From assembly GCA_021158345.1 (NCBI GenBank), contig JAGGUV010000097.1, forward strand, positions 1 to 56,999: DNA of 56,999 nucleotides, given 5' to 3'. The position numbers and the translations under genes were made by a program. Below, in pieces: positions 3,904-13,018 of the stretch. The notes under the pieces are model-generated. The model was not told the origin of the DNA. It worked only from the letters and a program-made list of their open reading frames with translations, and did no database searches. Within the stretch, counting starts at the first letter, position 1. Each line of letters opens with the position of its first letter. Source of the DNA: Bacteroidales bacterium (GTDB lineage: Bacteria > Bacteroidota > Bacteroidia > Bacteroidales > AUK083).

Positions 3904-5976
3904 CTATTCAGGATACTCAATTCTTATATGATGAATATTTAACAATCTCTTTTTAAAGACATTTTTAACTTTTGTAATGTCCTTAAAAGTAATATCAGAA
4001 TTAATAAATTGTTTTTCCTGAATTTGTTTATCAATAATATTGTCAACGAGGTCGTTAATTTTTTGTTCATCAGGTTCTTTAATACTGCGCGAGGCAGCTT
4101 CAACAGAATCAGCCATCATAAGAATAGCAGTTTCTTTTGAAAAAGGCAAAAGTCCATTATATGAAAAATCATCTTCGTTAATTGGTTCATCGGGGAAATA
4201 TTTTTTCTGTAGAGTATAAAAATATTCCACTTTTCTGGTGCCATGATGTGTCCTGATAAAGTCAATAATTTTTTCAGGAAGTTTATACTTTTTAGCCATT
4301 TCAATACCCTTAATAACATGGCTGATAATAATTTTTGCACTCTCTGCATAAGTATGGTCGTCATGAGGATTAGTACCTGATGATTGGTTTTCAATAAAAT
4401 ACATAGGCATATCCATTTTTCCTATATCATGATACAAAGCTCCTGTTCTTATCAGTAATGAATTACCTCCGATTTTGTAAATAGCTTCTTCTGCTAAATT
4501 TGAAACCTGCAGCGAATGTTGAAAAGTACCAGGTGCTTTCATTGATAATTGCCTTAAGAGTTTTGAATTTGAATCTGACAACTCCATTAAAGTAACATCA
4601 GTAATAAATCCAAATAATTTTTCATATAAAAATATTAATGGATATGAAAATAATGTTAAGATTGAACTTATTGCAAATAATCCGTAATTTATATATTTAA
4701 TATCTTCAAAATTTCCTTGTTGTATAAGTGATAAGGCTGTGTATATTAACGAATAAGATAAAAATATTAACACTGAAGTAAGGAAAAATTGTGAGCGATT
4801 TTGCAATTTTACTATGCTTAAGATGGTAACAATGCCTGTTATTAATTGCAGAAATATAAACTCGAAACTATTTGGTACAATAAGCCCGATTAAAACTATT
4901 GTGATAATGGTTACAAACAACGCCAGATTAGTATCAAAAAATGAACGTATAACAATTGGAACTAAACATATTGGCACAAGGTATATTAAACTGGGATTAT
5001 ATTTAACAGTTATTTTAGTCATAAAAACTGTTAAGATAATTGTAAATAAAATCAATATTAGTTTTTTGTTACTGTAAAAAATATCCTTTCTGAAAAACAG
5101 CAAAAACAAAATAAATACTGTAATAATAATTAACACTAATATTATTTGTCCTGTTAATATCAAATGATAATCAGAAGAATTGCCTATTTGATTTTCATAA
5201 TCTTTTTTTAAAGAATAAAGAATTTGAAATTTATTATTTGAAATAATATCCCCTTTTGAAATAATTTTTTCGCCTTTTTGAATCATACCATGCGATAAAG
5301 AAATTTTATTTAATGCTGCTTGTTTTGCTTTTAAAGTAAGATTTTCATCATATTTTACATTTTGAATAATACAATTTGTTAAAAGCCTTGTTAAAAGCGT
5401 AACATCAATATTATCATGTTCTTTTAATACCTTTTGAATATATATGTTAGCACTGTGAATTGTAAACAAATCTTTCAGCTCTTTTTTTTCTGCAACATTA
5501 TTTTTTAAAATATTGATATTATAATCATCAGGCTTATTTTCAATTGTTTTATGCACTTCAATTATCCCTTTTGATAATATAGTGTCATAAATTGAAACAC
5601 AAACCTCTCTGTTAAGATTTTTTAAATAATTGTTTGAGTCTTTATTCGGATATTTTTCATCCCATTTTAAATTAAAATTTTTAATAAGTTTATTTTTGTT
5701 TTGATCAGATGTGTCTTTTATGTATTTAAAATAAGGGTGTAAATTTTTTAAAATTTCCTTTTTTTCAACTTTTATTTCAGCATCTGATTTTAGTATCGCA
5801 AAATCAAAAGGCGCTATTAAATCTTCGTGCTGCCAAGGCTTGCCCTTTTGAAATTCATATTTGAATTTTAAATTCTTTGGAAAGAATGATAATAATATAA
5901 GTACTGTTACTGTGAATAAAAAATACTTGTATATTAAAAGATAATGTTCTCTAAAAAAAGATAAAATTTTTTTCAT
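3904..5976 (-). CDS. pgpH: 7TM-HD family phosphohydrolase (PgpH-like; putative cyclic-di-AMP phosphodiesterase)
   Basis: 690 aa; multiple TM helices then HD domain ...APGTFQHSLQVSNLAEEA...RTGALYHDIGKMDMPMYFIENQ...DDHTYAES. Confidence 0.85.
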   Translation of the reverse strand: MKKILSFFREHYLLIYKYFLFTVTVLILLSFFPKNLKFKYEFQKGKPWQHEDLIAPFDFAILKSDAEIKVEKKEILKNLHPYFKYIKDTSDQNKNKLIKNFNLKWDEKYPNKDSNNYLKNLNREVCVSIYDTILSKGIIEVHKTIENKPDDYNINILKNNVAEKKELKDLFTIHSANIYIQKVLKEHDNIDVTLLTRLLTNCIIQNVKYDENLTLKAKQAALNKISLSHGMIQKGEKIISKGDIISNNKFQILYSLKKDYENQIGNSSDYHLILTGQIILVLIIITVFILFLLFFRKDIFYSNKKLILILFTIILTVFMTKITVKYNPSLIYLVPICLVPIVIRSFFDTNLALFVTIITIVLIGLIVPNSFEFIFLQLITGIVTILSIVKLQNRSQFFLTSVLIFLSYSLIYTALSLIQQGNFEDIKYINYGLFAISSILTLFSYPLIFLYEKLFGFITDVTLMELSDSNSKLLRQLSMKAPGTFQHSLQVSNLAEEAIYKIGGNSLLIRTGALYHDIGKMDMPMYFIENQSSGTNPHDDHTYAESAKIIISHVIKGIEMAKKYKLPEKIIDFIRTHHGTRKVEYFYTLQKKYFPDEPINEDDFSYNGLLPFSKETAILMMADSVEAASRSIKEPDEQKINDLVDNIIDKQIQEKQFINSDITFKDITKVKNVFKKRLLNIHHIRIEYPE

Positions 5977-6848: not shown

Positions 6849-6856
6849 TATATTTG
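6849..6856 (+). promoter_or_regulatory. Bacteroidota-type -7 element TATATTTG for the NlpC/P60 gene
   Basis: Matches TAnnTTTG 22 bp before the ATG at 6878; argues against the TTG start in the ORF track. Confidence 0.45.
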
Positions 6857-6877
6857 AATAATAAAATTATAAAGATT

Positions 6878-7654
6878 ATGAAATTTGGTATATGTAATTT
6901 AAGCTCAGCACCTTTAAGAATCGAACCATCGCATAAATCAGAAATGGTAAACGAATTATTATTCGGTGAAACTTATAAGATTATTGAGAAATATGAAAAT
7001 TGGTATAAAATCATCTCTGATTTTGATGATTACCATGGGTGGATTAATGAAAATCAGTTTTGTAATATTGATGAAATGGAATACACAAGAATTAAAAAAT
7101 CAAAATTATTTTATACTAAAAACTTGTGTGAAAACATTTTCAATAAAACAAAAAATATAAAATCTCCTATTATAATTGGCAGCACTTTGCCGGCTCTTAA
7201 AAATAAAAGTTTTAAAATTAATAACGATTTTTATGAATTTTATGGTGATACATCTGATGAAAAATCAGACATAAGAGAATCACTGATAAAAACAGCTAAA
7301 AAATATTTGAATGCTCCTTATTTGTGGGGTGGACGTTCTCCTTTTGGTATCGACTGCTCAGGATTTACACAAATAGTATTTAAAATTCAAGGTATAGAAC
7401 TTTTCAGAGATGCTGCACAGCAGGCAACACAAGGTAAAAATTTAAATTTTATCTCCGAAGCAAAACCCGGCGACCTTGCCTTCTTTGATAATGAAGAAGG
7501 GGATATTGTGCATGTGGGAATTATTATGGAAAACAAAAAAATTATTCATGCTTATGGCTGTGTTCGTATTGACAATATTGACCATAACGGGATATTTAAC
7601 TCGGAATTAAATAAATACACTCACAATTTAAGATTGATAAAAAAAATAATCTGA
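6878..7654 (+). CDS. C40 (NlpC/P60) cell-wall peptidase with N-terminal SH3-like domains
   Basis: MKFGICNLSSAPLRIEPSHKSEMVNELLFGE (SH3) and YLWGGRSPFGIDCSGFTQIVFK...GDLAFFD...IVHVGIIME (NlpC/P60 Cys and His). Confidence 0.9.
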   Translation: MKFGICNLSSAPLRIEPSHKSEMVNELLFGETYKIIEKYENWYKIISDFDDYHGWINENQFCNIDEMEYTRIKKSKLFYTKNLCENIFNKTKNIKSPIIIGSTLPALKNKSFKINNDFYEFYGDTSDEKSDIRESLIKTAKKYLNAPYLWGGRSPFGIDCSGFTQIVFKIQGIELFRDAAQQATQGKNLNFISEAKPGDLAFFDNEEGDIVHVGIIMENKKIIHAYGCVRIDNIDHNGIFNSELNKYTHNLRLIKKII

Positions 7655-7681: not shown

Positions 7682-7689
7682 TAGATTTG
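7682..7689 (+). promoter_or_regulatory. Putative -7 element TAGATTTG upstream of the FMN riboswitch
   Basis: Matches TAnnTTTG about 45 bp before the aptamer start. Confidence 0.4.
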
Positions 7690-7733
7690 CAAATGCAATT
7701 TCAGAGAAAAAAATTCTCTATAATTGCAAAAAA

Positions 7734-7846
7734 TATCTTCAGGGCAGGGTGTAATTCCCGACCGGCGGTGATAGTCCGCGACTCCCTTTTGGGACTGATT
7801 TGGTGAAATTCCAAAGCCGACAGTAAAGTCTGGATGGAAGAAGATT
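7734..7846 (+). ncRNA. FMN riboswitch (RFN element)
   Basis: ATCTTCAGGGCAGGGTGTAATTCCCGACCGGCGGTGATAGTCCGCGACTCC...GGACTGATTTGGTGAAATTCCAAAGCCGACAGTAAAGTCTGGATGGAAGAAGAT is a near-consensus RFN sequence. Confidence 0.97.
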
Positions 7847-7892
7847 ATTAATGCGGTTTTTTATACGACATTATCCTTTTTTGAAATATATG

Positions 7893-7927
7893 CCCTGATG
7901 TTAATTTTTTACATCAGGGTTTTTTAT
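7893..7927 (+). terminator. Rho-independent terminator, likely the FMN riboswitch expression platform
   Basis: CCCTGATGT-TAATTTTTT-ACATCAGGG followed by TTTTTTATT, between aptamer and receptor start codon. Confidence 0.85.
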
Positions 7928-7971
7928 TGCCCTGAAATTTTTATTGTTAAATCTTTTAAAATTTTAAATTT

Positions 7972-10635
7972 ATGAAAAAGTTAATGTGTAAATTATTAAA
8001 AATTTTTTTCATAGCTATTTTTATGGTTATGACTTTAAGTACTATTAATGCTCAGAATGTAATAAGCGGAATAGTTAAAAATGAATCTAATAATATGCCT
8101 TTAGTCTTTGCTACGGTTTTTATTAAAGGTACTACAATTGGAACAACAACTGATAATAACGGGGCATTTAAATTAGAAGTTAAAAATCGTCCAAAATATG
8201 TTTATGTAAAATTTATTGGTTTTAAGACCAAAATAATAGAGACTAAATTTAATAATGATAATCAAGCTAATTTAGGTGAGATCTTTTTAATACCTGAATC
8301 AATAGGATTAAATGAAATAGAAGTCTTTTCTGATATAGCTATTGATAGAAAAACTCCTGTAGCTGTTTCTACTATTGGAATTAAAAAAATCGAAAAAGAA
8401 CTTGGCTTACAAGATTTTCCCGAGATAATGAAAAATGCACCCGGAGTTTATACCACAAGGCAGGGTGGGGGTTATGGCGACTCAAGAATAAATATCAGAG
8501 GCTTTGACCAAAAAAATATTGCTGTTTTGATTAACGGTATTCCTGTTAACGAAATGGAACAACAGGAAGTATATTGGTCAAACTGGGCTGGCTTGACTAA
8601 TGATACTCGTACTATACAAGTTCAAAGAGGCCTTGGTGCATCTAAACTTGCTATTAATTCTGTTGGTGGTACTATTAACATTATTACTAAAACTACAGAT
8701 ACACAAAAAGGTGGTAGCTTTCAGCAGTCATTTACTGATTATGGATTAAATAAAACTGTACTTAGTCTTTCAACCGGGTTAATGGAAAATAATATGGCTG
8801 TAAATTTTTCCGGTTCTCATACTTATGGAAATGGATATATAGATGCTACTCAGGTAAATGCCTGGAGTTATTTTTTATCTGTTAGCAAACAAATTAATAA
8901 AAAACATCAATTAATTTTAACCTTGTTCGGCACACCTCAAACTCACGGTCAGCGTTCTGTTAAAAAAATAGATATGATGACTAATGAAATTCATGATAAA
9001 TACGGAGTGAAATATAATAGAGATTGGGGCTATCTTGATGGTAAAATGCTAAATCGTAAAGAACATTTTTATCATAAACCACAAATTGCTTTAAATCATT
9101 ATTGGAAAATTTCAGATAAAACCTTTTTGTCTTCAAGTTTTTATGCTTCAATAGGTTATGGTAAAGGTGCTAATGTTGTTGGTCATGGTTATTATAAATA
9201 TAATGTTGATTACACTGATGATGGGAGACAAATAAATTGGAATATTGTTAGAGATATTAACGCTACAAACGTTGATACTCTGGCTGCAAGAGAAAACAAT
9301 TGGTATCAGGTAATTAATAATGACACGGTTTTTGAAAAAGAAAGTGTTCAGATTTTTCGTAATTCATGCCATAATCATAAATGGATTGGCTTATTATCAA
9401 CATTAAATTATGATATTAATGATTATCTGAAACTAATTGCAGGTGTTGATGTAAGATTGTATAAAGGAATACATTATGAGGAGGTTAGAGACCTTTTTGG
9501 CGGTGATTATTGGGACGACACTAAAAATATTTATAAAAATCAATATTATGATGCTAATCTTTTAAATAGAAGTAAGCATGCTAAAGTTGGTGATAAAATT
9601 AATTATAATTATCTCGGATATATAAATTATTACGGAGGCTTTTCGCAGATAGAATATACTAAGAATAATTTTTCAACATTCCTTGCTGTATCAGCTTTTC
9701 TAAAATCAAATAAGAGAAAAGATTTGTTTAGCTATTTCCCTGAAAATAATGAAACCAATTGGCAAAATTTTTTAGGCTATAATGCTAAAACAGGCCTTAA
9801 TTTTAATATTAACGAAGAAAATAATGTATTTGCTAATTTAGGTTATTACACCAAATCACCAACTTTTTATAATATTTTTATCAATTATTCAAATGAGATA
9901 AATAAGGATTATAAACCTGAAAAAGTAAAAGCTTTTGAACTGGGTTATGTTTATAAAACAGAAAATTTTATGATGCGTATAAATGCTTATTATACTAAAT
10001 GGGATGATCAATGGCTGGATGCTACTTATAGTTATTCTGAAAATAATATGATGAAATATCAAAATATTTATTTTAAAGGTTTAGATGAATTACATAAAGG
10101 TGTAGAAGTTGAGATTAATTCTAAAATTTTTAATAAACTTAGTCTAAGTATGAATTTTTCCCTTGGCGATTGGAGATATGAAAATAATGTTTCTGCTGAT
10201 GTATTTGATAAAATTAGCCATGAAAAAGTAGGGACATATAAAATTTACACAAAAAATTTAAAAGTTTATGATGCTCCTCAAACTCATTTTGGTATTGAAA
10301 CAGAATATAAAATTATTAAGAATATTGAAATAGGCGCTAATTGGATGTTTTTTGACAATTTATATAGCAAGTTCGATCCAACTGAAAGAACTAATCCTTT
10401 AGAAGAAGGCATACAATCGTATAAAATCCCGGCTTATAATATTTTAGATATGCGTGCTTCTTATTATTTTAAGATTAATGGTTTAAAATCTGTTTTTACA
10501 ATAAATTGTTATAATGCTTTAAACGAAGAATATATTTCTGAAGGTTATGATGGTATAAATCATGATGAAAATTCATTCGTAGGGTTTTGGGGCTTTAAAC
10601 GTAATTTTAATTTCTCGTTTAAAATGATGTTTTAA
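7972..10635 (+). CDS. TonB-dependent outer-membrane receptor with N-terminal carboxypeptidase-regulatory-like domain; candidate flavin receptor
   Basis: 887 aa; signal peptide, ISGIVKNESNNMPLVFATVFIKGTTIGTTTDNNGAF, plug domain DSRINIRGFDQKNIAVLINGIPVNEMEQQEVYWSNW...NSVGGTINIITK, C-terminal aromatic beta strand FNFSFKMMF; preceded by FMN riboswitch. Confidence 0.93.
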   Translation: MKKLMCKLLKIFFIAIFMVMTLSTINAQNVISGIVKNESNNMPLVFATVFIKGTTIGTTTDNNGAFKLEVKNRPKYVYVKFIGFKTKIIETKFNNDNQANLGEIFLIPESIGLNEIEVFSDIAIDRKTPVAVSTIGIKKIEKELGLQDFPEIMKNAPGVYTTRQGGGYGDSRINIRGFDQKNIAVLINGIPVNEMEQQEVYWSNWAGLTNDTRTIQVQRGLGASKLAINSVGGTINIITKTTDTQKGGSFQQSFTDYGLNKTVLSLSTGLMENNMAVNFSGSHTYGNGYIDATQVNAWSYFLSVSKQINKKHQLILTLFGTPQTHGQRSVKKIDMMTNEIHDKYGVKYNRDWGYLDGKMLNRKEHFYHKPQIALNHYWKISDKTFLSSSFYASIGYGKGANVVGHGYYKYNVDYTDDGRQINWNIVRDINATNVDTLAARENNWYQVINNDTVFEKESVQIFRNSCHNHKWIGLLSTLNYDINDYLKLIAGVDVRLYKGIHYEEVRDLFGGDYWDDTKNIYKNQYYDANLLNRSKHAKVGDKINYNYLGYINYYGGFSQIEYTKNNFSTFLAVSAFLKSNKRKDLFSYFPENNETNWQNFLGYNAKTGLNFNINEENNVFANLGYYTKSPTFYNIFINYSNEINKDYKPEKVKAFELGYVYKTENFMMRINAYYTKWDDQWLDATYSYSENNMMKYQNIYFKGLDELHKGVEVEINSKIFNKLSLSMNFSLGDWRYENNVSADVFDKISHEKVGTYKIYTKNLKVYDAPQTHFGIETEYKIIKNIEIGANWMFFDNLYSKFDPTERTNPLEEGIQSYKIPAYNILDMRASYYFKINGLKSVFTINCYNALNEEYISEGYDGINHDENSFVGFWGFKRNFNFSFKMMF

Positions 10636-10651
10636 TTGTATGAATAAATTA

Positions 10652-10690
10652 ATAATCCCCGGTATGTTTTATATATCGGGGATTTGTTTT
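10652..10690 (+). terminator. Rho-independent terminator after the TonB receptor
   Basis: AATCCCCG ... CGGGGATT followed by TGTTTT. Confidence 0.7.
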
Positions 10691-11393: not shown

Positions 11394-11581
11394 AATTCCA
11401 TTTAGTCATAGATATTTCATCTGTTTATATTTTTATGGTTTTTAAACAATTCTGTATTTTCAACTAAATAATGTCATTTAATAAACAAATATAAACATTT
11501 TATTAGATGTCTGAATAGAAACAAGGTATGCTTTGCCCTTATCTGATTTTTTTTATACTTTTGACATACAAATCAATACAC

Positions 11582-13018
11582 ATGAGCTGGCTTTTATTTT
11601 GGATAATAATTTATCTGACTGTAATAATTTTTTTAACGCTCAAGCATGTAAAATCTACAGATCTTGAGAATTATCTCGTTAACAACAGGAAAACAAAAAC
11701 ACTTCCTTTGGTATTTACCACGCTTGCAACTTTTGTAGGAGGAGGCACATCCATCGGATTAATGGCAATGGGTTACGAATCGGGGTTTGCAGGTGTAGGA
11801 ATAGGAATAGCGTATGTAATAGGTTTTTTTATCTTGTCATTTTTCGCATCTAAAATTCATAATTCCGGTAGAGAAAACAAAATATATTCTTTTCCTCAAT
11901 TTCTGAACAAAAAATATACAGAAGGAGAAAATTCATTTTTTTCTAAAATGTTTTCTTCAACTGTCACCGGAGTAAATATCTTCATTTTCTTTTTCCTTCT
12001 TGCAGCACAATTTGTAGGAATGGCTTCATTGCTGAGATATGCTTTTAATATTGGGTATCAGACTGCCGCAATAATTTCTTGTCTTACTGTAATTATTTAT
12101 ACTGCTTTTGCAGGATTGTCAGGAGTAATATTAACCGATGTGCTCCAGTTTATAATTATTATAATTATGATAATTTTAATCTTTATTCCCGGAGTTATTA
12201 CAGATACTAATTCATTAAGAGCTTTATCTGAATTACCTAAAAATATGCTTAACGGAACTTTTTACGGAATAGTTTTTTTAATAGCACTTCCTGTTTTTCT
12301 TGCACCTTCTGTCATGGTTCGTATGGATATCTGGCAAAGAGTACTTGCTGCAAAGAGTGGGAAAACAGCAAAAAAAGTCAGCATAATCTCCGGTCTTGGG
12401 ATGCTGCCGTTTTATTTTATTTTTCCCCTTGTCGGGATGTCTGTCAGAATAGCTCTCGGTAATAGTATTGACCCCAATGATGTACCTTATTTGTTTTTAG
12501 ACAGTCATTGTTCCGAGTTTGTTCTTGGCTTTGCAATAATTGGTTTATTATCTGCTTTAATGTCTTCAGGAGATAGTTTTTTAAATATTATTTCTATTTC
12601 TGCAGTTAAAGACTTTATAGGATGGAAAAAGAAAGAAATTTCAAATAAAAAAATACAATTACACATACGAATTACAACTATTATTTTTGGAATAATTGCA
12701 CTTTTTATGGCTATTTTTTTCCCAAAGGTTATTGATTTAATGGTCGTAGGACTGGCGACTATTGTAATATTTGTTCCTGTAACTTTTCTGGCTTTAATAA
12801 AAAAAGATGTTATCAAATATAAAGCAGTTGCTCTTGCAAGCATTTTTTCGGGATTTTTTGTTAATCTCGGATTTTTTATATGGGGAATAATATGTCCTAC
12901 GCAGTTTGAAGCAAAATCTTCGTTTGTCCCCGGATTTATTACTGCACTGATAGTTTTGTTGATTGGGGTTTTCATTAAAAAAAAATTGTTCAAATTTTCT
13001 CATAATATACAAATCTAA
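11582..13018 (+). CDS. Sodium:solute symporter (SSS) family transporter
   Basis: MSWLLFWIIIYLTVIIFLTLKH...NYLVNNRKTKTLPLVFTTLATFVGGGTSIGLMAMGYESG; ~13 TM helices; ATG at 11582 preferred over 11528. Confidence 0.88.
   Translation: MSWLLFWIIIYLTVIIFLTLKHVKSTDLENYLVNNRKTKTLPLVFTTLATFVGGGTSIGLMAMGYESGFAGVGIGIAYVIGFFILSFFASKIHNSGRENKIYSFPQFLNKKYTEGENSFFSKMFSSTVTGVNIFIFFFLLAAQFVGMASLLRYAFNIGYQTAAIISCLTVIIYTAFAGLSGVILTDVLQFIIIIIMIILIFIPGVITDTNSLRALSELPKNMLNGTFYGIVFLIALPVFLAPSVMVRMDIWQRVLAAKSGKTAKKVSIISGLGMLPFYFIFPLVGMSVRIALGNSIDPNDVPYLFLDSHCSEFVLGFAIIGLLSALMSSGDSFLNIISISAVKDFIGWKKKEISNKKIQLHIRITTIIFGIIALFMAIFFPKVIDLMVVGLATIVIFVPVTFLALIKKDVIKYKAVALASIFSGFFVNLGFFIWGIICPTQFEAKSSFVPGFITALIVLLIGVFIKKKLFKFSHNIQI

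Follow-up and report, generated by a model that had tools for sequence, protein, structure and literature searches.

An FMN riboswitch directly before a TonB-dependent receptor gene in Bacteroidales points to a candidate outer-membrane flavin receptor

The known flavin importers are inner-membrane proteins, which raises the question of how flavins pass the outer membrane in Gram-negative riboflavin auxotrophs. RibU, RibM/PnuX, RibN/ImpX, RibXY, RibZ and RfnT are riboflavin importers linked to FMN riboswitches, partly in auxotrophs (PMC4418817, PMC6593275), but they all belong to the inner membrane. The locus described here places an FMN riboswitch before an outer-membrane receptor, P0001. It lies in a stretch of 56,999 nucleotides of a Bacteroidales genome, all of which we analysed and refer to as the window. 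In the literature that we searched, neither an outer-membrane flavin receptor nor an FMN riboswitch with a TonB-dependent receptor had been described; most subscription papers were outside this search and priority is not established. A 2015 survey of riboflavin transporters mentions neither TonB nor the outer membrane, a 2024 review of TonB-dependent substrates does not mention flavin, and in a 2026 preprint about the riboflavin genes of Bacteroidales the transporters named are of other types, with no mention of TonB.

The riboswitch and the receptor gene

The earlier note had proposed a near-consensus RFN aptamer at 7734-7846. The covariance model of the FMN riboswitch (RF00050) matched in full length (1-138) on the plus strand at 7731-7849, scoring 120 bits where the gathering threshold is 66.2 (E 1.7e-27, cmscan). 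At 95.5% completeness, the 2.47 Mb genome has no other RF00050 match. The aptamer and the two switch strands described below are intact in DNA of about 23-31% GC. TAnnTTTG is the Bacteroidota -7 promoter consensus, and a possible box of this type, TAGATTTG, can be read from the sequence on the plus strand at 7682-7689. The leader at 7687-7729, 5' of the aptamer, looks capable of forming a hairpin (TTGCAAATGCAATTTCAGAGAA...TTCTCTATAATTGCAA).

Script and folding both recovered the strong intrinsic terminator that had been claimed at 7893-7927, and placed it at 7892-7925 on the plus strand. Its stem of 10 pairs (5 G-C) with a loop of 9 occupies 7892-7920 and is followed by the T run. A strand inside the aptamer, TCAGGGCA (7739-7746), is the exact complement of TGCCCTGA (7891-7898), and the latter, the antiterminator partner, also contributes to the terminator's 5' arm; both lie on the plus strand. 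The minimum-energy fold of the 7731-7900 transcript contains the antiterminator and that of the 7731-7925 transcript contains the terminator, so these two folds give the element an expression platform of mutually exclusive structures, with energies that leave out FMN and timing. The leader is therefore a possible terminator/antiterminator switch. When the transcript ends at 7940, the aptamer is able to pair in the fold with a second copy of the complement at 7927-7936. A second hairpin at 7914-7935 (TCAGGG...CCCTGA) overlaps the terminator and carries in its 3' arm a repeat of the antiterminator complement.

The same design was found in relatives. A terminator lies within 170 nt after the RFN element in 26 of 40 RFN-receptor loci, against 1.3 expected from simple shuffles, and follows it in 23 of 48 loci where RFN precedes rib genes, against 1.4 expected in the same way. 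Antiterminator-like pairing akin to that of the window was seen in most relatives.

The open reading frame at 7972-10635 (plus strand) encodes P0001, 887 aa long. It carries CarboxypepD_reg-like (PF13715), Plug (PF07715) and TonB-dependent beta-barrel (PF00593) domains, all above the Pfam cut-offs, and its AlphaFold2 model has the TBDT fold and matches solved TonB-dependent receptors. With plug and barrel both present we assign P0001 to this class. No rib gene stands between riboswitch and receptor, as the earlier note had stated. A terminator-like hairpin of 14 pairs with a T-rich tail at 10654-10684 (plus strand) closes the unit, which on this account looks monocistronic, and the next gene 3' of it lies on the opposite strand. 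As sequence features, the riboswitch and its position before the receptor are near certain.

Upstream and outside the unit, Pfam identified an NlpC/P60 gene at 6854-7654 (plus strand), a conserved upstream neighbour of RFN-receptor loci that also occurs at L163, L165, L171, L172, L179, L182 and L184, and a 7TM-HD phosphohydrolase gene at 3904-5976 (minus strand), a conserved synteny marker whose homologues adjoin RFN-receptor loci elsewhere. Downstream, 0.9 kb from P0001 and on the same strand, 11528-13018 encodes an SSF-family symporter that is PanF-like below the cut-off. It could conceivably be an inner-membrane flavin importer but is unconvincing as one, with a terminator and an opposite-strand gene in between.

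P0001 falls outside the named receptor families that we tried. It scored 57.9 against the 368 bits needed for SusC/RagA (TIGR04056), over the N-terminal part only, and 41 against 600 bits for BtuB (TIGR01779). The AlphaFold2 models of a main-clade receptor (see below) and of the window receptor, with pLDDT of 85 and 84, both resemble solved TonB-dependent receptors generally. PqqU with PQQ is the first and second fold match of the two models. A substrate could not be read from the structure search, in which many solved receptors match about equally and no match names one.

Riboflavin synthesis and the riboswitch-receptor pairing

Profiles of ribH (PF00885) and ribB (PF00926) each matched in 14 of 14 control genomes and found nothing in the window genome, where flavokinase (PF01687) is kept. 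Since both synthesis genes are absent, the organism must on this evidence be a riboflavin auxotroph that depends on imported flavin. This puts P0001 in the putative flavin receptor class, defined as RFN-controlled and carried by a riboflavin auxotroph. The window genome contains no main-clade RFN-linked receptor and no nucleotide pyrophosphatase of the receptor-associated kind.

We then took a census of 393 genomes of the order, each at least 85% complete. Among 89 readable RFN elements, 40 precede a receptor homologous to P0001, 2 an unrelated barrel and 47 ribD or ribBA. While ribH is present in 316 of the 393 genomes, it is missing from 39 of the 40 RFN-receptor genomes and from both with the unrelated barrel; it is retained in 315 of 353 genomes outside the RFN-receptor set and in all 47 RFN-rib genomes. 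For the association of RFN-receptor with ribH loss, Fisher's test gives p = 4.6e-31, and 4e-4 when a single genome represents each family; neither value is corrected for kinship. The 40 RFN-receptor genomes are spread over 15 families, and three families (f9, f74, f113) hold both states, each tracking ribH loss. Not every genome without ribH has the pairing: 38 of 77 lack an RFN element before a P0001-family receptor (e.g. G003, G016, G034, G048).

The sole RFN-receptor genome with ribH, G201, has two RFN elements, one heading a rib operon and one before a receptor. The gene of that receptor (L172:3971-5235, contig G201:C51) is disrupted by a frameshift and by a large deletion within it, and most of the barrel is gone. 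A broken receptor beside a rib operon, here in one draft genome, is what would be expected if only cells without synthesis need the receptor.

Beyond the census, the receptor alignment was matched against public sequences; among the 80 best hits, 26 have an RFN element before the receptor, including Lentimicrobium and Marinilabiliaceae, and all 26 are metagenome assemblies. Outside the order, none of 24 classifiable RFN loci in a sample of the phylum precedes a receptor; all precede ribBA or ribD. Twenty other homologue loci had no riboswitch or other Rfam regulatory RNA. Since the riboswitch thus marks the receptors of organisms that do not make riboflavin, these patterns strongly suggest that RFN-linked receptors take up flavins in a TonB-driven manner.

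In two ribH-less genomes the unrelated barrel lies directly behind an FMN riboswitch (the one of these tested was PF25183), and in a third genome it comes immediately after ribH. This PF25183 barrel with CarboxypepD_reg is larger than P0001 and dissimilar to it (L113:545-3778 in G383, G140:C157, L277:781-4047 in G302). Proteins resembling it come after the first RFN-linked receptor in L163, L164 and L168.

Origin of the window receptor

In a tree of 161 receptors, 63 RFN-linked receptors formed one fully supported clade; in its sole member without an RFN link, 237 bases separate the start from a contig end. This main clade is like the window unit in its riboswitch, switch design, receptor family and auxotrophy. 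However, P0001 is a separate branch: its placement within the clade was rejected by the tree and by the AU test (p 0.002). The question whether RFN elements regularly precede the clade of this receptor thus has a divided answer. Across the order they precede related receptors (40 loci, 39 of them in ribH-less genomes, and the clade of 63), but P0001 itself stands outside. It has its own long branch, in a group with a paralogue from the same genome (53% identical, without riboswitch) and with tandem second receptors that follow the first RFN-linked receptor (G201/L172, L179). It is a member of a sister lineage which elsewhere stands second in a locus of riboswitch, receptor, receptor and nucleotide pyrophosphatase.

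The barrel residues also set P0001 apart from the main clade. In window numbering, all 89 non-RFN relatives have Q323, N467, D493 and H501, and nearly all have Y497 and G499. In the RFN clade they are replaced by E, A, H and L, and by F and S, respectively. Five of the six residues sit on two neighbouring barrel strands and four alternate along one strand, which suggests a single lumen-facing patch and a change of ligand in the RFN clade. At the positions of the main-clade replacements E316, A445, H471, F475, S477 and L479 (G276 numbering), P0001 has Q, H, D, Y, G and H; it retains the older Q323, D493, Y497, G499 and H501, and N467H is its sole change. Because P0001 lies outside the main clade and keeps older residues, its substrate is less certain than that of the main clade.

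Gene order offers an account of how this receptor came under the riboswitch. The NlpC/P60 and 7TM-HD upstream neighbours are common to the window and to loci with RFN and two receptors. The simplest reading is that loss of receptor 1 by deletion put receptor 2 behind the riboswitch in the window lineage, and G201 looks like an intermediate of such a loss.

Receptors near the P0001 branch stand in tandem after RFN-receptor 1; in a single case such a receptor comes after an RFN-ribD-ribE-ribBA-ribH operon. A gene for a nucleotide pyrophosphatase lipoprotein, assigned to PF01663 in the two tested, lies 57-104 nt downstream of the receptor in eight loci, of which five are behind RFN-receptor 1. 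Three of these loci continue with a further gene, a PhoD-like phosphatase in the two tested. Outside the cytoplasm, enzymes of these two kinds might turn FAD into FMN and riboflavin. The locus with the rib operon (L175:1-9259), from a riboflavin-synthesizing genome, encodes in order the RFN element, ribD-ribE-ribBA-ribH, a receptor of the wider P0001 family, the nucleotide pyrophosphatase and the PhoD-like phosphatase. It is possibly a combined synthesis and salvage operon; 20 other RFN-rib operons had no P0001-family receptor downstream, which makes it a single case.

The wider family without RFN has other company. An unnamed lipoprotein is linked in 39 loci and an Endonuclease_1 protein in some. 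In L193, L202, L214 and the 36 others, the lipoproteins tested had no Pfam match, and sometimes an Endonuclease_1 protein with a type IX secretion tail is present. These loci look as if they serve the scavenging of nucleic acid or phosphate.

A candidate flavin-scavenging switch

We consider it likely that the window unit is a flavin-scavenging switch. At high FMN, FMN would hold the aptamer and free TGCCCTGA, and the terminator would stop transcription before the receptor gene. At low FMN, the aptamer strand would pair with TGCCCTGA and the receptor would be made. The receptor would then use TonB energy to carry a flavin, be it riboflavin, FMN or FAD, through the outer membrane, and the cell, lacking riboflavin synthesis, would use its kept flavokinase to turn imported riboflavin into FMN and FAD. 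For the window unit we infer FMN binding, TonB dependence and the substrate from the features above, and the receptor would presumably work with an inner-membrane flavin importer. No generally linked importer was identified at RFN-receptor loci; an MFS gene was discarded as such, being near only one group of 8 loci and no operon partner.

The main competing reading is that the riboswitch was inherited from a lost receptor 1, while receptor 2 still imports the substrate of the wider family, which might be a nucleotide or another phosphodiester; flavins would then take a different route into the cell. The grouping of P0001 with tandem second receptors, the shared upstream neighbours, the decay in place of receptor 1 in G201, the linkage of the wider family to the lipoprotein and sometimes an Endonuclease_1 gene, and the older barrel residues all agree with it. 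However, the window genome has no main-clade receptor, riboflavin synthesis genes were not found in it and it needs some flavin entry route, the aptamer and switch strands have stayed intact in AT-rich DNA, and P0001 has its long branch and a histidine at a site (467) that is invariant in all 89 non-RFN relatives. We regard this reading as unlikely.

Even less probable is that the receptor imports another substrate for which the demand follows flavin status (iron, haem or some other cofactor, for instance), with FMN only as the signal. Several bacteria couple the regulation of iron and of riboflavin (PMC6041382), and the fold is equally close to siderophore receptors, but an iron receptor would not be expected to coincide so nearly perfectly with the loss of riboflavin synthesis. 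In what we hold to be the most improbable reading of all, gaps in metagenome assemblies would mimic the auxotrophy. Most genomes are drafts with an estimated completeness of 92-99%; yet ribB is found in 1 of the 42 genomes with an RFN-linked receptor or barrel, 41 of 42 lack ribH as well as ribB, flavokinase is present in 42 of 42, and a genome in one contig with 99% completeness (G209) has the same pattern.

RFN-linked receptors are therefore strong candidates, on genomic grounds, for the first outer-membrane flavin receptors. Main-clade members very probably import flavins; the window receptor probably does too, with less certainty because of its separate origin. The flavin-receptor prediction of the earlier note thus gains from the order-wide match between RFN-receptor pairing and ribH loss and from the loss of ribB and ribH in the window genome, while it is weaker for P0001 itself and concerns an inferred uptake. 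More tentatively, and with some doubt, the FMN riboswitch may have recruited outer-membrane receptors more than once in riboflavin-losing Bacteroidales: the main clade, the window sister receptor linked elsewhere to the pyrophosphatase and PhoD-like phosphatase, and the PF25183 barrel. Together they might form an outer-membrane flavin-nucleotide salvage system, in which the flavin specificity of the window receptor would be independent of the main clade.

Vitamin riboswitches on such receptors have precedents. BtuB is a TonB-dependent receptor under a cobalamin riboswitch. It shares with P0001 this arrangement and the fold (1nqe), but has another ligand and a family model that P0001 is far from reaching. 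In Bacteroides thetaiotaomicron, a TPP riboswitch lies directly before OMthi (BT2390), a putative TonB-dependent outer-membrane thiamine transporter (PMC5613172). Here too, a vitamin riboswitch is immediately 5' of a TonB-dependent receptor gene in Bacteroidales; the differences are that the vitamin is thiamine, that the host makes it, and that the gene of the inner-membrane PnuT has its own TPP riboswitch. The E. coli PQQ receptor PqqU (YncD) lets cells that do not make this small redox cofactor scavenge it in a TonB-dependent way (PMC12124388). With 12-15% identity and a fold match without strong discrimination, it is a suggestive analogue. To our knowledge, PqqU has no riboswitch.

The recurring pairing of riboswitch and receptor points to concrete proteins for the outer-membrane step of flavin import. 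If our reading is true, flavins would join cobalamin, thiamine and PQQ as cofactors imported by TonB-dependent receptors, and the pairing would be a genomic mark of flavin cross-feeding.
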